Shown here piece by piece: positions 1,208 to 56,994 of a DNA stretch of 64,000 bases; position 1 is the first letter of the stretch; every line of letters starts with the position of its first letter. The stretch spans positions 1-64,000 of the forward strand of contig JACPAK010000004.1 of the NCBI GenBank assembly GCA_016180845.1, written 5' to 3'. The stretch is from Deltaproteobacteria bacterium. GTDB lineage: Bacteria; UBA10199; JACPAL01. Made by a program: the position numbers and the translations under genes. Under the pieces are notes generated by a model. The model had not been told where the DNA came from. It was given only the letters and a program-made list of their open reading frames with translations, and did no database searches.

Positions 1208-4200
1208 TTATGGCACCGTCATTTCGATAGACCAACTTAAAAAACCGGCACAGGTACCTGCTGATTCCGTAAATGAGATATCAATACAATCATTCGCCGT
1301 AATCGCTACCGTATTAACAGCATCGGCACACGTCTGACTGTTTGAGATCGAGCAGGTCAGTGCGGTATTAGAAAAGACACCGGTACAGCCGGTTGCCTTG
1401 CGTACGGTCAGCACACAGGTATCCCCCGATGCCTGAGCCGCACTCATATAAAAGTTCAAATTCTTGAGCGTCGCGGCAAAGGGGATATGAGTGCCAAGAG
1501 AGGCCTCCGCGGCACCACAAACCCCACCATAAGGATGGCAGGTGGTGCTGGCCGTAAGTGACACACTCGATCGGCCACTGATTAACGATCGATCGACACC
1601 GGTAGAGGCTGATGTAAGTCGACCATCCGCATCGACAGTGATCGAGGCGACGGTGTAACTACCCGGCGTGACAGCAGTCGAAGCAAGCTCCGAGGTTCCG
1701 ACCGCATCCGCGGCAATATCGGCCGCCGCTATTGTATCCGCTGCGATATCATCGGTCGTGATCGTCGAATCCGTGATCTCCGCTGATTCAATCGTTTGTC
1801 CCAGAACCGAAAGCTCTCCAGCGGCATTGGGTAATGTGATTGATCTGTCGGCGGTCGGGTCAGCAGCGGAGAGCGTGATCTCAAAAAGATCGGCAGTCGC
1901 CCCTTCAAAGATCAGGCTTTGATTCGTCCCATCAATAAAGCAATCGCCACTCAAGCAGGAACCAACCGCTGTAATATCACCCGATCCCGAAGCGGTGGCC
2001 CAGGCGGGATTGGCCCCTGTTCCCAAGGTTTGGAGGAACTGCCCGGAGGTTCCGGCAGCAAGCCTGACCCAATCAGTACCACTATAATACATGACATCCC
2101 CCTGCGCATCGGAACCGAGCGCAATATCGGTCCCATCCACAGAGTTGTCAGCAACCGTCGGATTTGGATATGACCCCGTTAAATCCCCTCCCGCACTCGT
2201 CCCCGACGTCACGATGGTCCCCGTCTCATTCGGAATTGTCACAATCGTATCGGCACCCGGATCGCCCGTGAAGGCCAATCGATTCTCGAAGGTATTGACG
2301 GTGGCCCCTTCATAGACCAGCTCAGTTCCATTGTTTGTCCCATCAACAAACGCCGCCCCCGTCGTTGCATCCCCTACCGCTGATATATCTCCTGTCTCCG
2401 ATCCGGATGAGGCAGCGGTCAATCTCCCGTCCGCATCCACCGTGATCGAGGCGATCGTGTAACTCCCAGCGGTCACTGCCGTCGCCGCTAACTCGGAGGC
2501 GTCAACCGCATTCGCAGCGATCTCGGTACTCCCAACCGCATCCGTTGCAATCTCATCACTCCCGACCGCATCGGTCCCGATATCCGCAGCGGCAATCGTT
2601 GCATCGGTGATCTCGCCTGATTCGATCGTCTGTCCCAAAACTGAGAACTCACCGCTCGCATCCGGTAATGTCACCGACCGGTCCGCCGTTGGATCGCCAG
2701 CCGAAAGAACAATTTCGAAAAGATTGGTGGTCGCCCCCTCGAATGTCAGGTTCTGATTCGTCCCATCAATAAAACAATCACCGGTTGTGCACGAACCGAC
2801 AGAGGAAACATCACCTGTCTCGCTTCCCGTTGAGGCCGCTGTGAGTCTTCCGTCGGCGTCGACTGTAATGCTCGCCACGGTGTAGCTTCCCGCTGTCACC
2901 GTAGTGGCAGCAAGTTCGGAAGCCCCGATAGCATCGACAGCGATCTCTGCGGAACCGACGGCATCGGTGGCTATTTCAGAGCTGCCCACAGCGTCCGCAG
3001 CGATCTCATCACTCCCGACCGCATCGGTCCCGATATCCGCAGCGGCAATCGTTGCATCGGTGATCTCGCCTGATTCGATCGTCTGTCCCAAAACCGAGAA
3101 CTCACCGCTCGCATCCGGTAATGTCACCGACCGGTCTGCCGTTGGATCCCCAGCCGAAAGAACAATTTCGAAAAGATTGGTGGTCGCCCCCTCGAATGTC
3201 AGGTTCTGATTCGTCCCATCAATAAAACAATCACCGGTTGTACAGGAACCGACAGAAGAAATATCACCGGTCTCGCTTCCTGTTGAGGCCGCTGTGAGTC
3301 TTCCGTCGGCGTCGACTGTAATGCTCGCCACGGTGTAACTTCCCGCTGTCACCGTAGTGGCAGCAAGTTCGGAAGCCCCGATAGCATCGACAGCGATCTC
3401 TGCGGAACCGACGGCATCGGTGGCTATTTCGGAGCTGCCTACAGCATCCGCAGCGATCTCTAACCCACCAACGGCATCGGTCGCAATTTCCGAGCCCCCA
3501 ACAGCATCGGCAATAATCTCGGCGCTTCCGACAGCATCCGTCGCAATCTCTGCCGATCCGACACCGTCAGTCGCAATATCTCCTGCTGTAATCGTGTCCG
3601 CCGCAATCTCAGTCGTCGTGACGGCATCCGTTGCGATCTCCGCTGACCCAACGGCATCGGTCGCAATTTCAGAGCTGCCGATTGCATCCGCCGCGATATC
3701 GGCTGCAAGAATCGTATCCAGAGAAATCTCCGCGGTTGTGACCCCTCCCGCAGAAATTCCGATGACATCAGCGGCAACCGTAAGACCGTTACCAGCCCCC
3801 ACATCGAGTGTCACACTGCCGGTGCTCCCACCCCCCGTCAGACCGGCCCCCGCAGTCACATCCGTAATATCACCACCACTCCCTGAGGGGGTGTCCCACG
3901 AGAGAACGCCGGCGCCACTTGTCTTCAAAAATTGACCAGAGGTTCCGTCGACGGAAGGCAAGGTCCAGATCTGGTTCGCGGAAATATCGTTGGGCGCCTT
4001 AAGGCCGACATAATTGGAACCGGTCGCCTCCAGTTCGCGAAACCTGAGCTCTGCCGTTTGTCCCGCGTCGGTACCAAAGGCCATCAGGACAAGACCATCA
4101 GCAGTCGTCCCATCAATTGTCACAAGGGTAAAAGTTCCTGTCGCTGGGGTTGTCCCGCCGATCACTGAATTATTGATCGTCCCCCCCGAAAGTGTCAGAT

Positions 4201-5026
4201 TGTTATCCACCTCGGCATCGGAAACGACAGAACTTCCGGCAACGAGATCCGAGGCGGTCAAGGTATCCGAAACCTGCGTATCAGTGATCCCGGCCGCCGT
4301 GCTGATATCGGCACTGGTAATCGTCCCATCAGTAATCTCCGAAGATTCAATCGAAGTCCCCAGAACAGAACTGAGCGTCACATCACCCGATGCCCCACCC
4401 CCACTGAGACCCGTCCCTGCCGTCACGGCCGTGATATCACCTGTCCCACTGCTCACCATCCCATTCGCCGCCGAGGTAATACGACCATCGCCATCCACAA
4501 CAATAGTCGCTAAGGTATATGTCCCCGGAGTCACTCCCGAAGAGGCGAGTTGGGTCGGACCGATAGCCCCCGTCCCGATATCGGATTCCTCAATGACACC
4601 GGCCCCGATATTCTCGCTCGTAATAATATCCTCCGCGAGAGAAAGCGCGATTTCAGCCACATCGGCCCTCTGGGACCAGGGAATGCTAAAGATTGCCAGA
4701 CGCGGAGAAAACTCCCGATCCCCCTCAATCTGAACACCGAGGTAAAGCGACTCATTTTCAAAGAGATCCACGGGAAATGGAACAGTCGCCCCTAATTCTG
4801 CGGTAAAGACACCTTGATCAAAAGAAAGATTCTGTGCCTCTTCCCAAACGGGATCTGCCGAACTGGAATCAGGGTAGAGACGAAAGGTGACTTCCAAAAA
4901 ACCACCGAGCGGGTTCCCTTCTTCATCCACAACAAAACCCTGGTGAAAAAGCCGATCCCGTGTCCCTGCAAGGGCAGCAAGGGGAAAAAGTAGAAGGAAA
5001 AGGAAGATGAGGATCTTGATCTTCAT
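1208..5026 (-). CDS. Secreted decapeptide-repeat fibre-like protein, 1272 aa
   Basis: Starts with a clear Sec signal peptide (MKIKILIFLFLLLFPLAALA), then a roughly 110-residue N-terminal beta domain (FHQGFVVDEEGNPLGG). Next come stretches of the type GSGDITAVTAGTGLSGGG and DGTSGQFLKTSGAG, seen in phage tail-fibre and other fibrous surface proteins, and long runs of a ten-residue repeat, consensus IATDAVGSAE. Two nearly identical 151-residue blocks lie in tandem. The last about 120 residues form a Cys-containing, jelly-roll-like C-terminal domain. Probably a surface or extracellular fibre; substrate unknown. Its ATG overlaps the stop of the small upstream lipoprotein-like gene by 4 bp, indicating translational coupling. 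Low-complexity repeats make copy number prone to variation and to assembly error. Confidence 0.8.
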   Translation of the reverse strand: MKIKILIFLFLLLFPLAALAGTRDRLFHQGFVVDEEGNPLGGFLEVTFRLYPDSSSADPVWEEAQNLSFDQGVFTAELGATVPFPVDLFENESLYLGVQIEGDREFSPRLAIFSIPWSQRADVAEIALSLAEDIITSENIGAGVIEESDIGTGAIGPTQLASSGVTPGTYTLATIVVDGDGRITSAANGMVSSGTGDITAVTAGTGLSGGGASGDVTLSSVLGTSIESSEITDGTITSADISTAAGITDTQVSDTLTASDLVAGSSVVSDAEVDNNLTLSGGTINNSVIGGTTPATGTFTLVTIDGTTADGLVLMAFGTDAGQTAELRFRELEATGSNYVGLKAPNDISANQIWTLPSVDGTSGQFLKTSGAGVLSWDTPSGSGGDITDVTAGAGLTGGGSTGSVTLDVGAGNGLTVAADVIGISAGGVTTAEISLDTILAADIAADAIGSSEIATDAVGSAEIATDAVTTTEIAADTITAGDIATDGVGSAEIATDAVGSAEIIADAVGGSEIATDAVGGLEIAADAVGSSEIATDAVGSAEIAVDAIGASELAATTVTAGSYTVASITVDADGRLTAASTGSETGDISSVGSCTTGDCFIDGTNQNLTFEGATTNLFEIVLSAGDPTADRSVTLPDASGEFSVLGQTIESGEITDATIAAADIGTDAVGSDEIAADAVGSSEIATDAVGSAEIAVDAIGASELAATTVTAGSYTVASITVDADGRLTAASTGSETGDVSSVGSCTTGDCFIDGTNQNLTFEGATTNLFEIVLSAGDPTADRSVTLPDASGEFSVLGQTIESGEITDATIAAADIGTDAVGSDEIATDAVGSTEIAANAVDASELAATAVTAGSYTIASITVDADGRLTAASSGSETGDISAVGDATTGAAFVDGTNNGTELVYEGATVNTFENRLAFTGDPGADTIVTIPNETGTIVTSGTSAGGDLTGSYPNPTVADNSVDGTDIALGSDAQGDVMYYSGTDWVRLAAGTSGQFLQTLGTGANPAWATASGSGDITAVGSCLSGDCFIDGTNQSLIFEGATADLFEITLSAADPTADRSITLPNAAGELSVLGQTIESAEITDSTITTDDIAADTIAAADIAADAVGTSELASTAVTPGSYTVASITVDADGRLTSASTGVDRSLISGRSSVSLTASTTCHPYGGVCGAAEASLGTHIPFAATLKNLNFYMSAAQASGDTCVLTVRKATGCTGVFSNTALTCSISNSQTCADAVNTVAITANDCIDISFTESAGTCAGFLSWSIEMTVP
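2545..3450 (-). repeat. Two tandem 453-bp coding repeats
   Basis: Bases about 2545-2997 and 2998-3450 are near-identical at a constant offset of 453 bp (151 codons), differing at only scattered positions. The unit encodes a C-T-T-G-D-C-F-I-D-G-T-N block, the F-E-G-A-T block, a beta-rich linker and several decapeptides. It keeps the reading frame, so copy number can change by recombination without disrupting the protein. A third, more diverged unit of the same design lies on either side. Confidence 0.85.
3363..3728 (-). repeat. Array of about twelve 30-bp (10-aa) coding repeats
   Basis: Reading the minus strand gives consecutive ten-residue units such as IATDAVGSAE, IAADAVGSSE and IATDAVGGLE with Ile at 1, Asp at 4, Val/Ile at 6 and Glu at 10. 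The strict period of ten suggests a beta-solenoid or stacked fibre stalk. The units are continuous coding sequence without unique spacers, so this is not CRISPR. Confidence 0.8.
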
Positions 5027-17734: not shown

Positions 17735-17752
17735 AAGCGGGCGACGGGGTTC
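17735..17752. repeat. 18-bp partial copy of the tRNA-Gly 3' end
   Basis: Identical to 17968-17985, the T-arm/acceptor 3' end of the neighbouring tRNA gene, at an offset of 233 bp. Such a duplication is the usual scar of integration at a tRNA 3' end. Here it brackets a segment that contains the dual-hairpin element. Confidence 0.7.
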
Positions 17753-17829: not shown

Positions 17830-17963
17830 TCTCACCCCGTCATAAATAGAGTGAGTGAGCATTGATCGGATCGGATTCACTCCGTCCGATCAAGCGGAAC
17901 GAACGATGTACCTTGGGAATTATAGATGGGGTTGTTAAGGGGAGAGCGGGATCTCCCCTTAAT
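17830..17963 (+). repeat. Dual-hairpin element, copy A
   Basis: Aligns without gaps to 41545-41678 (constant offset 23715). Hairpin 1 is 17864-17891 (stem GATCGGA / TCCGATC plus inner CGGA / TCCG). Hairpin 2 is 17935-17962 (11-bp perfect stem TTAAGGGGAGA / TCTCCCCTTAA). The linker is 43 nt in both copies. Stem positions differ between copies by compensatory changes. Strand is arbitrary, given as the strand read. Just upstream (about 17792-17818) is another perfect 10-bp stem, ACAGAACGAT / ATCGTTCTGT. Confidence 0.75.
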
Positions 17964-17968
17964 TTAAA

Positions 17969-18041
17969 AGCGGGCGACGGGGTTCGAACCCGCGACCCCG
18001 AGCTTGGGAAGCTCGTGCTCTACCAACTGAGCTACGCCCGC
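17969..18041 (-). tRNA. tRNA-Gly (anticodon CCC)
   Basis: Reverse strand reads GCGGGCG acceptor, D-arm AGCTCAGTTGGTAGAGC, anticodon arm CGAGCTTCCCAAGCTCG with loop CTTCCCAAG, variable loop, T-arm CGGGTTCGAACCC and acceptor CGCCCGC. All four stems pair and the discriminator is U, usual for tRNA-Gly. CCA is not encoded. The 3' end is partly duplicated 233 bp away. Confidence 0.96.
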
Positions 18042-27588: not shown

Positions 27589-29943
27589 CTATGACGTCGC
27601 TTCGCTCCTGTTACCCCCCTTGTTAAAAACCACGTTTTCAAATGAAGCAGCCCAAATATCCTTGATTTCCTTAACCGACAGATCAATCTCCTCGCCAATC
27701 TTCAGCCGATTACCTCCCACCTTCCCCAAGATCGTCGCCGGAGTTTTTTTAAGCTTAGCCAATTTGAGAAACTTCTGCAAATGATCCTCGTTCAAACTGA
27801 CAATGATCCGGGATTGGGTTTCGGAGAACAAGTGAAGCCACTGCCGATTTTGACTTACGCCAGACGGGTGACTCGGGTCGGGCGCCCGCCCGCGCGCAAC
27901 GGGTGAGCACGGGTGGGCGGAACCCGAGGCAGGACCCGTCCCATTTGGGTCAAAATCGATAGTGGCTCCAAATAACGCCGGTCCCGATACACAACACTCC
28001 GCCAGCGCCACTGCCAGACCTCCCTCTGAGCAATCATGGGCCGAGCGGACCCAACCTTTTCGAATCCCTGTGAGCACCAACGCCTGGACCCTCTTTTCAA
28101 GCGGGATATTGAGCCGAGGCGGACGACCGGCGACAATGCCGTGAATTACTTTGAGATACTCACTCCCTCCAAAATCTTCACCCCACTTTGAAAAAGGGGG
28201 GCTGGGGGGGATTTTTCCAAATGCCGGGCCTACCATCGCAACAACATCCCCCTCCTGCTTAAACCACTGCGTACAGTGCCTTTCGACATCATCGAGAAGC
28301 CCGACCATCCCGATTGTTGGTGTGGGATAGATGCTTCCTTGTTGGCTCTCATTATAAAAACTGACATTCCCGGAAACGATCGGCGTCCCGAACGCCTTAC
28401 ACACCTCACTGAGACCTTGGGTCGCCTCTTTAAACTGCCACATCACCTCAGGGTTCTCAGGACTCCCAAAATTCAGGCAATCAGTGACGGCGACCGGTTT
28501 TCCACCCGAGCAGACGATATTCCGTGCCGCCTCGGCAACTGCAATCTTCGCCCCTTCCCTCGGATTCAGATAACAGTAACGACTGTTACAGTCGGTCGTT
28601 AACGCAAGCCCCTTTTTCGTCCCCTTGATCCGGATCACCGCCGCATCGGATCCGGGAAGAACAGTGGTATCGGTTCCCACGGTGTGATCATACTGGCGGT
28701 AGACCCAATGCTTGCTGGCGAGGTTAGGGGAACTAAGGAGCCTCATGAGAATTTCATTCGGCTCCTCGATCGCGATCGGGTAACGCGATCGCGGCCGCCG
28801 TACCGGCCGCCGTACCGGCCGCCGATACACCGGCGCCTCTTCACTGATTGGAAGATTCGGGACAACTCCAACCACCGTCCCGTTCGACCGAATCACCACC
28901 TCATGTCCCTTTGTAATCTCCCCCACCTGTACCGCATCGAGGTCCCACTTCTGAAAAATTTTAAAGACCTCCTCCTCATGCCCCCTCTTCGCCACAAGAA
29001 ACATCCGCTCCTGGGACTCCGAAAGCATGACCTCATAAGGAGTCATGCCGGTTTCCCGTTGAGGAACATGATCCAGTTGCAGGGTCATGCCGACACGTCC
29101 CTTTCCCGACATCTCGACCGAGGAACAGGTCAACCCCGCCGCCCCCATATCCTGAATCCCATAAACCACCTGTCTCCCGCTGTCTGACTCCATGAGCTCC
29201 AAACAGGCCTCCATCAGTTTTTTTTCGGTAAAGGGATCGCCAACTTGAACTGTCGGACGTCGCTCCACAGACTCCTCATCAAAAACATCACTCGCCATCG
29301 TCGCTCCGTGGATTCCATCACGACCCGTCTTGGCCCCGACATAGATCACCGGATTCCCAACTCCACCCCCCTTTGCATAAAAGATTTTTTTCTTTTCAAT
29401 GAGTCCGACACACATCGCATTGACCAAAATATTACCATTATAACATTCATCAAAATAAACCTCCCCACCGACCGTCGGAATCCCCATGCAATTTCCGTAA
29501 CCACCAATCCCCGCAACAACGCCATTCACAAGAGAGTCTGTCTTGGGATGATCCGGGGAACCAAACCGAAGTGAATTCAAGAGCGCGATCGGTCGCGCCC
29601 CCATCGTAAAGACATCGCGCAGGATCCCACCCACACCGGTCGCCGCGCCCTGATACGGCTCTATAAAGGAGGGGTGATTATGACTCTCCATCTTGAAAAC
29701 GACAGCGAGTCCTCCACCGATATCGACAATCCCGGCATTTTCACCGGGACCACAGATAACCTGCTTTCCTTTGGTCGGGAGTTTTTTGAGATAAGTCTTG
29801 GAACTTTTGTAGGAACAATGCTCGCTCCACATCACAGAGAAGATCCCGAGTTCGACGAGGTTCGGCTCACGACCGAGGATCTTCAGGATCTTTTTATACT
29901 CTTGTAGCGACAAACCATGTTGTTCAATCAATGAGGGATTCAA
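27589..29943 (-). CDS. purL: Phosphoribosylformylglycinamidine synthase subunit PurL
   Basis: Small-type PurL (about 784 aa) acting with PurQ and PurS. Motifs: [14 protein letters not shown], the [23 protein letters not shown] signature region and [15 protein letters not shown]. The start is taken as TTG 29943 because GGAGGAGG lies just before it; an ATG at 29958 would lie within that site. The protein carries three inserted segments absent from normal Pur[31 protein letters not shown], and [20 protein letters not shown] with its flank. All coincide with DNA repeats listed separately. The frame stays open, so the enzyme is presumably functional with loop insertions. Confidence 0.95.
27875..27943. 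repeat. GC-rich palindromic element inside purL
   Basis: A 69-bp segment sharing most of its sequence with 55963-56032 in the biotin carboxylase gene, with one single-base length difference. It folds through the arms GGGT/ACCC, GCCC/GGGC and CCCG/CGGG. In purL it encodes [20 protein letters not shown] in a region where PurL homologues have no such insertion. Confidence 0.75.
28180..28217. repeat. G/C-run element inside purL ([10 protein letters not shown] type)
   Basis: Nearly identical to 51507-51541 in the deacetylase gene, differing only in homopolymer lengths. It starts CCCCACTTTGAAAAAGG and then GGGGCT followed by a G-run. On the minus strand it encodes [10 protein letters not shown] in both genes. 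It interrupts the VGPAFG...GGSEYLK region of PurL. Confidence 0.75.
28792..28826. repeat. Three 12-bp tandem repeats in purL
   Basis: Unit CGGCCGCCGTAC occurs twice exactly and a third time with a changed end, encoding [11 protein letters not shown]. An inverted repeat CGATCGCG / CGCGATCG lies directly beside it (about 28768-28792). Confidence 0.75.
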
Positions 29944-30580
29944 ACAACCTCCTCCCATCTTCGTTACCGAGAAGCACCTCCGAGCATCTCTCCGGATGCG
30001 GCATCATCCCAAGGACATTCCCTTTCTCATTCATAATGCCAGCAATATCGTGGATCGCCCCATTCGGATTCCGTGGATGATAGCGAAAAACAACTCGCCC
30101 CTCCCCCTCCAATCTCTTCAATGTCTCTTCATCGGAAAAATAATTCCCATCTCCATGCGCGATTGGCATTGTAACAACAGTGTTGGGTGCGTAGTGTTTC
30201 GTGAATAGCGTCTGGTTATTTTCGACACGCAGTGAAACATTCTCACAAATAAATTGAAGATTTGCATTTCTCATAAGGACGCCTGGCAAGAGACCGGCCT
30301 CGGTCAATATCTGAAATCCATTACAAATCCCCAGAACCAAACCACCCCGCTCCGCATGCCGGATCACTTCTGTCATGATGGGAGAAAAACGGGCGATCGC
30401 GCCGGTCCGAAGATAATCGCCATAGGAAAAACCACCCGGGAGTATCACACAATCAACTCCCCTAAGATCAGTCTCTTTGTGCCAGAGGTAACGAACAGGC
30501 TGCTTCAGGAGGTCTTTCAGGACATGAAAGGCATCGCGGTCGCAATTGGATCCGGGAAAGACAACGACGCCAAATTTCAC
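29924..30580 (-). CDS. purQ: Phosphoribosylformylglycinamidine synthase subunit PurQ
   Basis: A 218-aa class I glutamine amidotransferase: [12 protein letters not shown] at the start, [21 protein letters not shown], the nucleophile elbow [10 protein letters not shown] and the His/Glu pair in [10 protein letters not shown]. It supplies ammonia to PurL. It overlaps the end of PurS by 4 bp and PurL by about 20 bp. Length is normal. Confidence 0.96.
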
Positions 30581-38254: not shown

Positions 38255-39382
38255 ATGAAACGGTATCTCGAACAGAAGGTCCGAGAGGACTTAAAAGAAA
38301 AGATGGTCTTTGTCGGTGGTCCCCGACAGGTCGGAAAGACGACTGTCGCCTTTCACCTGCTGGGAGATGTCGATGAATCCCACCCCGCGTACCTTAACTG
38401 GGACTCCCCTCCTGTTAAACAGGTCCTCCTCAAGGGGGAACTTCCATCAGGTCAGAAGCTGATCGTTCTCGATGAAATTCACAAATACAAAGGTTGGAGG
38501 AATCTCGTCAAAGGCTTTTATGATCAGTATAAATCAAAACGTCAGTTCCTTGTTACCGGTTCGGCTCGCCTCGACTACTACCGTCGTGGAGGAGATTCCC
38601 TTCAGGGGAGGTACCATTATTATCGTCTTCATCCATTAACCCTTCCGGAATTGGGAAAAAATTCAACCGAAGATGACCTTGAGCAATTAATCTCCTTCGG
38701 TGGCTTTCCGGAACCATTTCTCAAAGCGAACGGGCGTCATTACAAGAGGTGGCAACAAGAACGGCTCACACGGGTTCTTCAGGAGGACCTGATCGGTCTT
38801 GAGCAGGTGAAAGAGATCTCCCAATTGGATCTCCTTGTCCATCTCCTTCCCAGCCAAGTTGGGTCCATCCTCTCCCTGAATAACTTAAAACAAGACCTTC
38901 AAGTCGCCTTTGAAACGGTAGAGCGGTGGATTCTCATCCTGGAAAATATCTATTATTGCTATCGGATTTCTCCGTTCGGACTTCCACACTTGAGGACGGC
39001 AAAAAAAGAGAAGAAGCTCTACCTGTGGGATTGGTCTCAGTGTGAAAATCCGAGCGCCCGATTTGAAAATCTTGTTGCCTCTCATCTGCTAAAGATGTGC
39101 CATTTCCTCCAGGACTCTCAAGGGGACGAGATGCAACTCCAGTTTTTGCGAGATGCCCAAAAGCGGGAGATCGATTTTGTAGTGTCAAAAAACCGGAAAC
39201 CGATATTTGCTGTCGAGTGCAAGACGGGCGAATCTCAACTGAGTCCAAATATTTGCTATTTTGCGGAACGATCCCCTATCCCAAAATTTTACCAGGTCCA
39301 TCTGGGGAAAAAGGATGTTGAAATCGAGAAGCATCGGGCTCGAATCATTCCCTTTGGAGAGTTTTGTCAGCTGTTTCCTTAA
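38255..39382 (+). CDS. AAA_14/DUF4143 ATP-binding protein
   Basis: A 375-aa protein with a Walker A (GGPRQVGKTT), Walker B (KLIVLDEIHKYKGW), sensor-like FLVTGSARLD and the C-terminal DUF4143 nuclease-like half (RDAQKREIDFVVSKNRKPIFAVECK). Many genomes carry several copies as accessory genes of unclear role. It has its own AT-rich promoter. Its stop codon falls exactly at the edge of the duplicated HMA fragment, which suggests rearrangement at this end. Confidence 0.9.
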   Translation: MKRYLEQKVREDLKEKMVFVGGPRQVGKTTVAFHLLGDVDESHPAYLNWDSPPVKQVLLKGELPSGQKLIVLDEIHKYKGWRNLVKGFYDQYKSKRQFLVTGSARLDYYRRGGDSLQGRYHYYRLHPLTLPELGKNSTEDDLEQLISFGGFPEPFLKANGRHYKRWQQERLTRVLQEDLIGLEQVKEISQLDLLVHLLPSQVGSILSLNNLKQDLQVAFETVERWILILENIYYCYRISPFGLPHLRTAKKEKKLYLWDWSQCENPSARFENLVASHLLKMCHFLQDSQGDEMQLQFLRDAQKREIDFVVSKNRKPIFAVECKTGESQLSPNICYFAERSPIPKFYQVHLGKKDVEIEKHRARIIPFGEFCQLFP

Positions 39383-39508
39383 ATCGCCTTACACTCCTTC
39401 GCCTCAAAGCCAAGCTTGTTGATCGCCTCCATCACCTTTAAAGGAGTCGTCTTCGCAGGATCGATCGTGACTATCCCACCATGCGCATCCGACTTGATAT
39501 CGGACTTT
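39379..39508 (-). pseudogene. Truncated 3' copy of the secreted HMA-domain gene
   Basis: About 129 bp, roughly 95% identical to 41138-41266 at a constant offset of 1758 bp. It covers the C-terminal third of the HMA protein including its stop. The start and metal-binding CxxC part are missing. The similarity breaks off sharply at 39508. Confidence 0.85.
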
Positions 39509-41136: not shown

Positions 41137-41427
41137 CTAAATCGCCTTACACTCCTTCGCCTCGAAGCCGAGCTTGTTGATCGCCTCCATCACCTTCAGA
41201 GGAGTCGTCTTCGCAGGATCGATGGTGACTATCCCACCATGAGCATCCGACTTGATATCGGACTTTAGGACACCGGGGACCTCTTCGGTCAATGTCCGAT
41301 TGATTTTCTTCTCGCACATCGCACACGACATCTTCTCAACCTTGCAATCGAGCTTCTTTTCAGCGGCAAAAAGAACCGGGCTCAAAATAACGAGACCAAA
41401 AACCACGACAAGGATCTTTCGAATCAT
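41137..41427 (-). CDS. Secreted heavy-metal-associated (HMA) domain protein
   Basis: A 96-aa protein with a signal peptide (MIRKILVVVFGLVILSPVLFAA) and an HMA fold: VEKMSCAMCEKKINRTL carries the metal-binding C-x2-C, and PLKVMEAINKLGFEA closes the domain. It resembles MerP-type periplasmic metal carriers. It is intact, while its 3' third is duplicated 1.76 kb away. Metal unknown. Confidence 0.85.
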   Translation of the reverse strand: MIRKILVVVFGLVILSPVLFAAEKKLDCKVEKMSCAMCEKKINRTLTEEVPGVLKSDIKSDAHGGIVTIDPAKTTPLKVMEAINKLGFEAKECKAI

Positions 41428-41532
41428 AAAACCTCCTTAATTTGTTTGACAATTTTTCGAATTCTCCCTATCTCCTCTAAAAAAGTCAATCGATTCAAAC
41501 GTTTTTAATTTTCTAATTACTTAGATGCAACG

Positions 41533-41685
41533 TAACTATCCAGGTCTCATCAATATTCGCCGGTAGTGAGCGAGTATTGGCCGGATCGGATTCATTCCGT
41601 CCGGCCAAACGGAGTAAACGATGCAATCCTGGTTTAACAAATGGGGGTTTCAGGGGGAGAGTGGTATCTCCCCCTGAGTAGTAAC
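41533..41685 (+). mobile_element. Dual-hairpin element, copy B (MITE-like)
   Basis: Homologous without gaps to copy A over 41545-41678. Hairpin 1 is 41579-41606 (GGCCGGA / TCCGGCC plus inner CGGA / TCCG). Hairpin 2 is 41650-41677 (TCAGGGGGAGA / TCTCCCCCTGA). The element is flanked by a 9-bp direct repeat GATGCAACG at 41524-41532 and 41686-41694, like a target-site duplication. Its ends (TAACTATCCAGG and GTTACTACTCAGG on the other strand) are imperfectly inverted. It ends 2 bp before the ATG of the transporter gene. Confidence 0.65.
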
Positions 41686-41686
41686 G

Positions 41687-43267
41687 ATGCAACGAGAAAC
41701 ATGGAAGTCTCGTGTCGGAATCATCCTCGCCGTAGCTGGTAGCGCTGTCGGTCTCGGCAATTTTTTAAGATTCCCAGTTCAATGTGCCCAGAATGGAGGC
41801 GGAGCCTTCATGATCCCGTATTTTTGCGCCCTCCTCTTCCTCGGCATTCCACTCATGTGGGTCGAATGGGCGATCGGTCGTTACGGTGGGAGTTATGGGC
41901 ATGGGTCGTCACCGGGGATGTTCCAACGCCTCTGGAAAAATCCGATCGCGAAATACTTGGGCTCCTTTGCCCTCGTCGTCAACTTCAGCATCTGTGTCTA
42001 TTACGTCTATGTCGAGTCCTGGACACTCGCCTACGCCTGGTTCTCGATTTCAGGAAAATATTTTGGGATCACAGATCCGGTGGAGATGGGACTTTTTCTC
42101 TCAAGCTTTCAAGGGATTGGCACATCTTCCCATTTTTCCGGAATTGGAGCTGCCTATCTGTTCTTTCTGCTCACCTTTCTCGCAAATGTCTATGTCCTCT
42201 GGCATGGGATTCGGGGAGGGATAGAGAAACTTTGCAAGATTGCGATGCCAACCCTCTTTATCTTTGCGATTATTCTGATGTTCCGTGTCTTTACGCTGGG
42301 CACCCCGGATCCGACACAACCCGAAAACTCAGTCATCAACGGCCTCGGATTTATCTGGAATCCCGATTTCTCGAGACTGAGCGAGGCGAAGGTCTGGCTC
42401 GCTGCGGCGGGTCAGATTTTTTTTACGCTCTCGGTCGGATTCGGGTGCATCCATACCTACGCGAGCTATCTCAAGAGAAAAGATGACATCGTTCTGAACG
42501 GACTCAGCGCCTCTCTCACCAATGAAGTGGCGGAGGTGATCATTGGCGGTTCTATCGCAATACCGATTGCGGTCGCCTTTTTCGGGCTCACCGCAACGGC
42601 AATGATTGCGAAGGGAGGCGCCTTTAACCTTGGCTTTCAGGCAATGCCCCTGATCTTCCAGAAACTCCCGTTGGGACAACTCTTCGGCGCCCTTTGGTTT
42701 ATTCTCCTCTTCTTCGCCGGAATCACCTCTTCCGTCTCAATGACTCAACCGGCTGTTGCCTTTCTTCAGGATGAATTCCGCTTTTCTCGAAAAAAGGCGG
42801 TGACAACAATATCTGTCTTCTGGTTTCTCGCTGCCCATCTCGTTATCTATTTTCTGCGGTATGGTTATCTGGATGAGATGGATTTTTGGGTCGGAACCCT
42901 CGGAGTCGTCCTCTTTGCCTTCATGGAAACGATCATTTTCGTCTGGATCTTCGGTCCTAAAAACGCGTGGGAAGAGATTAATCTGGGGGCGGATCTGAAA
43001 CTCCCAAGATTTTTCCTTTTTGTCTTAAAATATATCACGCCGGTCTATCTGCTCTTTATCCTGATCTCCTGGGCCAAACAGGACGCCTATCGAATCCTTA
43101 TCATGGAAGGTGTGCCGGAAACCAATGTCCCTTATATCATTACCGCTCGATTGGTATTGGTCTTAACCATTACCGTTTGTGGCCTCTTGGTTTTCAAGGC
43201 GTTCCGTAAAAAGCCAGATACGGTCCCGAATTCGGTACCCAATACGGCGTTAGAGGGATCTCTATGA
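41687..43267 (+). CDS. Sodium-dependent NSS-family amino-acid transporter
   Basis: A 526-aa LeuT-fold protein with 12 helices. AVAGSAVGLGNFLRFPVQCAQNGGGAFMIPY is the unwound TM1 with sodium and substrate residues; FAGITSSVSMTQP is the TM8 region. Its start codon lies in the downstream 9-bp repeat of copy B, so its 5' leader was probably replaced by the element. It is translationally coupled (ATGA) to a 35-aa membrane peptide, as in two-component MetP/MetS-type transporters. The substrate may be a neutral amino acid; that is inference. Confidence 0.92.
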   Translation: MQRETWKSRVGIILAVAGSAVGLGNFLRFPVQCAQNGGGAFMIPYFCALLFLGIPLMWVEWAIGRYGGSYGHGSSPGMFQRLWKNPIAKYLGSFALVVNFSICVYYVYVESWTLAYAWFSISGKYFGITDPVEMGLFLSSFQGIGTSSHFSGIGAAYLFFLLTFLANVYVLWHGIRGGIEKLCKIAMPTLFIFAIILMFRVFTLGTPDPTQPENSVINGLGFIWNPDFSRLSEAKVWLAAAGQIFFTLSVGFGCIHTYASYLKRKDDIVLNGLSASLTNEVAEVIIGGSIAIPIAVAFFGLTATAMIAKGGAFNLGFQAMPLIFQKLPLGQLFGALWFILLFFAGITSSVSMTQPAVAFLQDEFRFSRKKAVTTISVFWFLAAHLVIYFLRYGYLDEMDFWVGTLGVVLFAFMETIIFVWIFGPKNAWEEINLGADLKLPRFFLFVLKYITPVYLLFILISWAKQDAYRILIMEGVPETNVPYIITARLVLVLTITVCGLLVFKAFRKKPDTVPNSVPNTALEGSL

Positions 43268-54956: not shown

Positions 54957-55465
54957 TCAATCACCACCAGTTCCTGCCCCGCCTCCACCGTCTGACCAAC
55001 CTTCACGACAATCTTCGACACCTTCCCCGCTTTCGGAGAGGCCAGCTCGTTCTCCATCTTCATCGCCTCGACGACAATAAGCCCATCCCCTTGCTTGACA
55101 ACATCTCCCTCGGTCACCTTGATTCCGATCACGCGCCCGGGCATCGGAGATTTAACCTTCCCGCTCTGTACAGCGGCAACGGATGGGCCCTTTCCGAGCT
55201 CACCGACCGGCAGGACCTCTATCAAATGACCCTTGAGATCGACCTGATATCCACCATTCTTCTCCCGGACAAAGACCTCGTAGGAATGGCCGTCCACAAG
55301 GATCGAATAATGCCCCGGACCGAGGACTCGATAATCAATCGAAGGGCTCGCGTCGCCCCCCCAACCGGCAAAGCCGGATTGGGTCCCCCCCTCAACGCCC
55401 CTTTGGGGCTGGTTATTCTCTTTCTCCTTCAACGCAAACCCTCCTGACGGGCGGTGGTTTTCCAT
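54953..55465 (-). CDS. Biotin carboxyl carrier protein of an acyl-CoA carboxylase
   Basis: A 170-aa protein from ATG 55465 ([18 protein letters not shown]). The biotinyl domain is C-terminal: [18 protein letters not shown] and the biotin Lys in [14 protein letters not shown]. The N-terminal part contains a repeat-like insert ([20 protein letters not shown]) encoded by a palindromic DNA segment. It overlaps the end of the biotin carboxylase gene by 37 bp. Likely partner of the carboxyltransferase at 62077-63627. Confidence 0.9.
55360..55383. repeat. Palindrome in the biotin carrier linker
   Basis: CCCAACCGGC, loop AAA, GCCGG-A-TTGGG, followed within 20 bp by a second small hairpin (GCCCC / GGGGC). 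It lies in the N-terminal linker, where added residues would be tolerated. Confidence 0.65.
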
Positions 55466-56994
55466 GGGGATTCTGTAGGGGTCCCGCTTGCTGGACCCCT
55501 CTCTTGGGCGCAGCAAGCAGCGCCCCTACATTTTCGATGAATCTCCACCGCAATCCTCGCGATCTCTTCATAACCGGTGTGGATCTCGCGTTTCAGATTT
55601 GAAAGTTCCCGTTCCACAAAACCGGTGTCATAGGAACCTTTTTGAAATTGGGGGTGGGCCAAAAGCGCCTCATGAAAGCAGAGATTCGTCTTCACTCCTA
55701 AAATCTGGTACTCCTGCAAGGCACGTCTCATCCTCTGGATCGCCTCTTCACGAGAATTCCCCCAAGCGATCAATTTCGCAATCATCGGATCATAATAAAC
55801 GGAGATCTCTGAACCGCTCGTCACTGCAGTATCGACCCGAATCCCAGGCCCCTCTGGGTTTCTGAGCTCCTCGATCCGCCCCGGCGAAGGAAGAAAATTA
55901 TTGTCCGGGTCTTCGGCATAGATGCGGCATTCGATGGCGTGGTATTGGGGGCGGGTGGCTGGGGGTCGGGCGCCCGCCCGAGCGGAACGGGTGAGCACGG
56001 GTGGGCGGAACCCCCAGACAGGACCCGCCCCAAGTATTGCACCAGCGGCAATTTCTATCTGCGCCCTGACCAGATCAATCCCGGTCACCGCCTCCGTCAC
56101 CGGATGTTCGACCTGAAGCCGCGCATTCATCTCAAGGAAATAAAAATTCTGATTTTTATCGACGAGGAATTCGAGCGTGCCGGCATTTTCATAGTGTGCC
56201 GCCTTGGCAATCTTCACCGCCGCCGCCATCATTTTTTTTCGGGTTGCCTGTTTTAGAAATGGAGACGGCGATTCCTCGACGATCTTCTGATGGCGCCTCT
56301 GGATCGAACACTCCCTCTCACCCAAAGCGATAATCTTTCCCGTACGATCTCCCAGGATCTGGATCTCGATGTGATGTGGCCCCTCGATATACTTCTCCAG
56401 ATAAAGCGAGGGATCACCGAACGACTGTTTCGCCTCCGACGAGGCAAGGCGAAAGGCGGATTCCACCTCATGTGCGGCATCAACCCGACGCATTCCCTTC
56501 CCTCCCCCTCCGGCACGCGCCTTCAAAAGAACCGGGTACCCAAATTTTTTCGCGACCTCCTTAGCCTCTGGAAAATCTTTGAGCGGGCTCTCCATCCCGG
56601 GGACGACCGGCACCCGAACCGACTGTGCCACCTTCCGCGCAGAAATCTTGTCTCCAAGCTTCCTCATTGATTCAGGTGAAGGACCGATAAATTTTATCTT
56701 TAGTTTGCGACAGGCCTCCGAAAAATCGGCGTTCTCAGAGAGAAACCCATAACCGGGATGGATCGCTTCAGCCCCCGATCTCTTCGCTACCTCCAAAATT
56801 TTTTGGATATTGAGATAACTTTCGGCAGCCAGTGCCGGACCGATCCGATACGCCTCATCGGCAAACCGAACATGGAGCGCCTCACGGTCGATCTCCGAAA
56901 AAACAGCAACTGTCCGGATCCCAAGCTCCCGACAGGCGCGAATAATGCGGACCGCGATTTCACCTCGATTGGCAATGAGAATTTTTTTGAACAC
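55429..56994 (-). CDS. Biotin carboxylase subunit of an acyl-CoA carboxylase
   Basis: A 521-aa ATP-grasp biotin carboxylase: FKKILIANRGEIAVRIIRA, AIHPGYGFLSENADFSEAC, the Gly-rich KARAGGGGKGMR loop, EKYIEGPHHIEIQILGD, SIQRRHQKIVEESPSP and NARLQVEHPVTE. Two segments are foreign to the family: [20 protein letters not shown], from the GC-rich element shared with purL, and a Cys-containing C-terminal tail from a second palindrome. Catalytic motifs are intact. It carboxylates biotin on the carrier. Confidence 0.94.
   Translation of the reverse strand: MFKKILIANRGEIAVRIIRACRELGIRTVAVFSEIDREALHVRFADEAYRIGPALAAESYLNIQKILEVAKRSGAEAIHPGYGFLSENADFSEACRKLKIKFIGPSPESMRKLGDKISARKVAQSVRVPVVPGMESPLKDFPEAKEVAKKFGYPVLLKARAGGGGKGMRRVDAAHEVESAFRLASSEAKQSFGDPSLYLEKYIEGPHHIEIQILGDRTGKIIALGERECSIQRRHQKIVEESPSPFLKQATRKKMMAAAVKIAKAAHYENAGTLEFLVDKNQNFYFLEMNARLQVEHPVTEAVTGIDLVRAQIEIAAGAILGAGPVWGFRPPVLTRSARAGARPPATRPQYHAIECRIYAEDPDNNFLPSPGRIEELRNPEGPGIRVDTAVTSGSEISVYYDPMIAKLIAWGNSREEAIQRMRRALQEYQILGVKTNLCFHEALLAHPQFQKGSYDTGFVERELSNLKREIHTGYEEIARIAVEIHRKCRGAACCAQERGPASGTPTESPWKTTARQEGLR
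55474..55530. repeat. 57-bp palindromic element at the carboxylase/carrier junction
   Basis: Ends TGTAGGGG and CCCCTACA are perfect inverted repeats, and inner GCTTGCTG and CAGCAAGC also pair. It encodes the C-terminal tail of the biotin carboxylase (RGAACCAQERGPASGTPT) and overlaps the region upstream of the carrier start. Confidence 0.75.
55963..56032. repeat. GC-rich palindromic element inside the biotin carboxylase gene
   Basis: A 70-bp relative of 27875-27943 in purL, in the same orientation relative to the gene. A one-base length difference means it is read in a different frame here, giving the Arg/Pro-rich [20 protein letters not shown]. Confidence 0.75.

Follow-up and report, generated by a model that had tools for sequence, protein, structure and literature searches.

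The window is a 64,000-nt stretch of a Deltaproteobacteria genome (contig JACPAK010000004.1) that includes two related double-hairpin elements on the plus strand, copy 1 (17849-17963) and copy 2 (41532-41685). The first-pass annotation had paired 17830-17963 with 41545-41678 in a gapless alignment at offset 23715, and this pairing holds, with 89 of 134 positions identical (74% across 17850-17958) vs. a median of 57 and a 95th percentile of 66 for the best match of random 134-mers elsewhere in the window. The limits assigned to the repeat do not hold, as the conserved unit starts at about 17850 and 41565, and copy 2 is longer (41532-41685) when its terminal inverted repeats are included. In a BLAST search of the genome with copy 2 as the query, copy 1 is recovered at E = 1.5e-14, and four other copies score higher (to 8e-30).

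Copy 1 is a type A element, delimited by BLAST and covariance-model matches, and is without a recognisable left terminal inverted repeat. Its features include: (i) hairpin 1 (TTGATCGGA...TCCGATCAA, 17862-17893, with arms at 17862-17870 and 17885-17893), defined by folding, (ii) an outer tandem G.A helix that extends hairpin 1, in which the 5' strand GAGTGAGTGAG (17849-17859) partners with CGGAACGAACGATG (17895-17908) based on type A covariation, (iii) a conserved TAGATGGGG (17923-17931) located 5' of hairpin 2, and (iv) hairpin 2 (TTAAGGGGAGA...TCTCCCCTTAA, 17935-17962, with arms at 17935-17945 and 17952-17962), defined by folding and hairpin 2 covariation. On its right, copy 1 ends 6 nt short of the 3' terminus of a tRNA gene located on the minus strand (17969-18041). 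Part of the 3' region of this tRNA (17968-17985) recurs, as an exact direct repeat of 18 nt, upstream of copy 1 at 17735-17752, perhaps as the trace of a further insertion.

Copy 2 is a full-length type A element, a MITE-like unit of 154 bp bounded by the terminal inverted repeats GTAACTATCCAGG (41532-41544) and CTGAGTAGTAAC (41674-41685). An 8-bp target-site duplication, GATGCAAC, is present on the left (41524-41531) and right (41686-41693), the latter of which holds the ATG (41687) of a 526-aa ORF. Hairpin 1 (TTGGCCGGA...TCCGGCCAA, 41577-41608, with arms at 41577-41585 and 41600-41608) and hairpin 2 (TTTCAGGGGGAGA...TCTCCCCCTGA, 41648-41677, with arms at 41650-41660 and 41667-41677) are defined as in copy 1, the outer tandem G.A helix is formed by TAGTGAGCGAG (41564-41574) with CGGAGTAAACGATG (41610-41623), and CAAATGGGG (41638-41646) lies 5' of hairpin 2. 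The stems first described for both hairpins are recovered by coordinates in both copies, as is the 43-nt linker (17892-17934). Both copies fold much better than dinucleotide-preserving shuffles (z = -5.4 for copy 1 and z = -6.4 for copy 2). Closely upstream of copy 2 is one unit of a 129-nt direct repeat (39380-39508 and 41138-41266, 95% identical).

A dispersed family with two module orders

Both window copies are members of a dispersed family of small mobile DNA elements of one uncultured bacterial phylum. The covariance-model search of the genome and its relatives that the first-pass annotation had proposed reveals many further copies, and the covariation is overwhelming. A hairpin 2 model based on twelve copies detects about 20 copies in the 2.1-Mb genome of origin (E <= 0.001), with matches in 19 of 60 relatives at the same threshold, all of the same class, and in 14 of 46 genomes of the phylum at E <= 1e-5. 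Outside the phylum, none of 339 genomes has a match to this model at E <= 1e-6. An exact pattern searched over 84,980 species returns one record, a groundwater Deltaproteobacteria MAG (NC_groundwater_355_Ag), while two element patterns used to search IMG/VR for viral carriers give no match.

Comparison of 107 copies with their flanks distinguishes two types. Type A is ordered as ATAGTGAGCGAG, hairpin 1, CGGAGCGAACGATG, about 15 nt, CAGATGGGG, hairpin 2 and a short tail. Type B is ordered as CMGATGGGG, hairpin 2, TTTAGCGAG, a short hairpin 1 and CGAGCGAAT. Thus, the order of the hairpin modules is swapped, and type B is a module-swapped relative of type A with a different right end (GAGCGAATNGA). 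In G016 (L121, L122, L123 and L128) and G001 (L062), type B makes up the right-hand portion of a longer unit, which starts with GTAG and carries further palindromes; this GTAG-starting palindromic stretch is about 110 nt and nearly identical in the four G016 copies.

The hairpins are retained by compensatory change. In alignments that are fitted to the model, and somewhat inflate the effect size, 93% of the type A pair cells (57 sequences) are standard pairs vs. 51% or less after the partner has been slid 1-3 columns, 27 of 31 base pairs are changed on both sides, double-change cells number 250 vs. 64 in shuffles, and hairpin 2 alone (95 sequences) is 94% paired vs. at most 75% when slid. The covariation is also visible by eye in the raw copies. 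An outer helix extends hairpin 1, with two tandem G.A steps alternating with covarying Watson-Crick pairs. The first tandem step of type A is G.A in 54 and A.G in 50 of 57 rows, and the Watson-Crick pairs beside the tandem covary (UA in 33 and CG in 13; GC in 29, AU in 16 and GU in 5). The G.A tandem is found in 25 of 34 scored type B copies, with CA/TG or AA/TT instead in three.

Stem sequences vary freely among the copies of one genome with pairing retained, and a second palindrome family (see below) is alike at its base; both would be expected if the compensatory changes of a mobile element were mutational, with template switching perfecting the palindromes, and not the outcome of structural selection. 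This account is rather improbable, however, as template switching should convert the G.A mismatches to Watson-Crick pairs, and the tandem G.A is kept in about 90% of the type A copies. Since purely mutational perfecting of palindromes would not retain the G.A steps, we infer that the hairpins and tandem G.A helix are under selection as a folded single strand, which may be either DNA or RNA. The conserved, non-canonical helix makes it testable what reads the hairpin, and whether as DNA or RNA.

Insertion sites, nesting and target duplications

Type B is inserted in frame in ileS (L011), RNase R (L038), mutY (L042), metH (L114), a GBBH-like_N protein (L133) and others, and type A is in frame in gatB (L096). 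The Pfam domains of IleRS, MutY, GBBH-like_N and GatB span the insert. The ileS orthologues of G002, G003, G004, G006, G017 and G027 are without the 26-residue insert, matching to about residues 490-493 and resuming at about 516-523, to 669. Type B is also within an RNase P RNA gene (L137), where the match to the RNase P class A model (850-1267) spans the element. At L106, a type B element with extra sequence on its left is nested in hairpin 1 of a type A. Some copies are translated as parts of host proteins; open frames are no commoner than in shuffled copies, in agreement with the initial view that selection on a peptide is unlikely.

Most type A copies are without the left inverted repeat. 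Eight retain inverted ends of 12 bp, which read GTAACTACTCAG and CTGAGTAGTAAC or vary slightly from these, and the 8 nt on either side of these copies, scored by eye at a fixed place, match at 8/8, 8/8, 7/8, 6/8, 6/8, 5/8, 4/8 and 2/8 positions. The exact 8/8 duplications are those of window copy 2 and L052 (GATTCGCG), followed by L100 (7/8). When the flanks of all type A copies are examined without fixing the position, 12 of 47 have at least 8/9 matches vs. about 4 expected, which is only modestly above the control. Dispersal, insertion in occupied protein and RNA genes and nesting, together with the exact 8-bp duplications at two inverted-repeat copies, demonstrate mobility. The first-pass annotation had left a choice between a structured RNA and a mobile DNA element built on hairpins; the in-frame insertions with empty orthologues, the nesting and the target duplications support mobility.

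An ATG is found at the same 1-2 nt past the hairpin-2 match in 19 of 37 type A copies, and in eleven of these the ATG opens an ORF of 150 codons or more. A GGAG...ATG signal is present within many copies. Other type A copies are a few nt from a tRNA 5' or 3' end or touch the tmRNA (L119), and a preferred short motif adjoins the right end of the element. These positions at start codons and tRNA ends could stem from target preference as well as from selection against damage.

The constant ATG offset, the GGAG...ATG signal and the RNA-like covariation would each suit a family that is foremost a cis-acting RNA or small RNA gene (e.g., a regulator before start codons) and not mobile. By contrast, the genes downstream are unrelated to each other, copies also occur within RNase P RNA, in the reading frames of proteins and in antisense orientation at the 3' ends of tRNAs, and no Rfam 15 family scores above its gathering threshold for the element; a non-mobile RNA is highly improbable. 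The right ends located at ATGs and a few nt from mature tRNA and tmRNA ends could likewise be explained by spread via RNA, in which a reverse transcriptase would copy the element RNA and the product would be joined at RNA ends. The 8-bp duplication and inverted repeats of the full-length copies instead fit DNA transposition, and in compact genomes such positions are also favoured by selection against damage; spread via RNA is very unlikely.

Mobilisation and relation to known elements

The family most probably represents non-autonomous, MITE-like mobile elements of about 110-155 bp that are peculiar to one bacterial phylum. A transposase acting in trans would recognise the element ends and move the element. 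The two hairpins and tandem G.A helix may be kept through being read as a folded single strand, either as DNA during mobilisation or as RNA transcribed with the host gene. Copies would survive where they are least harmful, against start codons, at tRNA ends or in frame in tolerant protein sites. The inverted ends and 8-bp duplication suggest a DDE transposase in trans, while the single-strand structure would also suit an HUH enzyme.

An HUH enzyme is central to the alternative of a REP-like element, in which a Y1 (HUH) tyrosine transposase of the RAYT/TIRYT kind would cut and join folded single-stranded DNA, and the structure would be kept for this enzyme. The subterminal hairpins, the structural conservation of a single-strand type and the short motif preferred beside the right end are consistent with such an element. 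In addition, type B is fused in G016 and G001 to a palindrome starting with GTAG, the tag of RAYT-type palindromes, and the hairpin-2 arm GGGGAGAG fits the GGGGWSAS motif of TIRYT repeats (PMC3733652). No Y1 transposase is present, however, in G000, G002 and G017, three of the five richest carriers, each with many copies. Twenty Y1 loci of the phylum are without element modules nearby and are flanked by their own, other repeats (GGGGTCAG/GGGGACAC). An 8-bp target duplication is also not expected of the Y1 (HUH) class. On balance, a REP-like element is unlikely.

For the MITE-like elements proposed here, the GTAA ends and 8-bp duplication prompted a search for IS66, the ends of which start with GTAAGCG and are associated with 8-bp repeats (PMC11946415). 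IS66 is absent from all carriers. An autonomous parent with the same ends was sought in G000, G006 and G017, where the inverted ends are spaced exclusively as in a MITE, with no longer pair. Thus, with no Y1 linkage, no IS66 and no longer end pair, the mobilising enzyme is not assignable, or is lost.

In lifestyle, the family is closest to the Rickettsia palindromic elements (RPEs), which are 105-146 bp and strongly folded, are inserted in the reading frames of many protein genes, and also occur in the genes of tmRNA and RNase P RNA (PMC2229807). RPEs and their Wolbachia counterparts (WPEs) include several families per genome, and the enzyme that mobilises them is not known (PMC2229807, PMC3733652). 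Similarly to RPEs, the elements described here are inserted in frame in conserved genes and in RNA genes (RNase P RNA), with type A adjoining the tmRNA. The family is distinct in its sequence, double hairpin with G.A tandem, module swap and ends. Unlike RPEs, it occurs in another phylum, has two separate hairpins with a tandem G.A helix, has many copies that abut start codons and tRNAs, includes full-length copies bounded by inverted repeats of 12 bp, with an exact 8-bp target duplication at two of them, and has the ends GTAAC.../GAGCGAAT without the CGTC tag of RPE-4/RPE-6, the separation from RPE sequences being based on their description.

Bacterial MITEs (e.g., Correia/NEMIS, RUP, ERIC and YPAL) share with the family a size below 200 bp, non-autonomy, terminal inverted repeats and highly base-paired transcripts, and also have a target duplication, which in the family is exact at two of the eight copies with inverted repeats (MITE features: PMC2229807). 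The family differs from these MITEs in its GC-rich internal hairpins, absence of TA ends, lack of a detected parent transposase and A/B module swap. REP/BIME (RAYT) and TIRYT repeats likewise have hairpins near their ends, positions beside genes and occasional intragenic copies, and further species also have REPs within their genes (PMC3733652). Types A and B are, by contrast, without a GTAG or CGTC tag, and three of the richest carriers are without a Y1 gene.

Protein-coding palindromic elements are known mainly from the Rickettsiales and a few REP-rich species. The Rickettsia-like lifestyle now extends to a largely uncultured phylum, in which at least two unrelated families of one genome are found in conserved enzymes. 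The double-hairpin elements of fungal mitochondria are also mobile, with two hairpins, and are inserted in genes and in the variable loops of RNA genes; these elements belong to a different genetic compartment.

Gene-end duplications and a second palindrome family

In six type B copies, long stretches of a host gene end occur as direct duplicates on the two sides of the element and abut it. The duplicated ends are of a tRNA (51 nt identical), pgk, purD, sdhB, the thrS 5' end and a kinase-like gene (names assigned by eye except sdhB). Loci with gene-end duplications next to type B include L008, L041, L063 and L078. Between the purD and sdhB duplicates, 21 codon differences are synonymous and 3 are non-synonymous. 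In purD, the orphan copy located 3' of the element retains the DIGLKG end of relatives, while the gene's own copy ends in GWKESME. Joint read-through translation was considered as the basis of the synonymous divergence; the copies are out of frame in 6 of 7 computed cases, with stops between, and, thus, joint translation is no explanation. Recombination that joins divergent alleles would fit the duplicated ends. A homing-like, one-sided exchange can be envisioned, in which type B would arrive with the adjoining gene end from another lineage, the imported end restoring the gene and the resident end orphaned exactly at the right end of the element; this route is doubtful. The predominance of synonymous differences between the gene-end duplicates suggests that the spread may follow an unusual route.

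A second, unrelated GC-rich palindromic family is present in the window at 27863-27940, within a purL-like ORF (27589-29958, minus strand), and at 55948-56031, within an accC-like ORF (55429-56994, minus strand). This family has 26 matches in the genome of origin, 12 in G003 and 2 in G005, nearly all inside long open reading frames, and is in frame in purL, accC and ileS. The outermost 3-5 stem bases vary per copy and remain complementary. The ileS of the genome of origin (L011) carries in-frame inserts of both families, at residues 496-520 and about 669-704, while its orthologues are without both. Elsewhere in the window, a large repetitive coding region (1653-4441) with 453-bp and 30-bp periodic repeats lies in a 1272-aa ORF (1208-5026).
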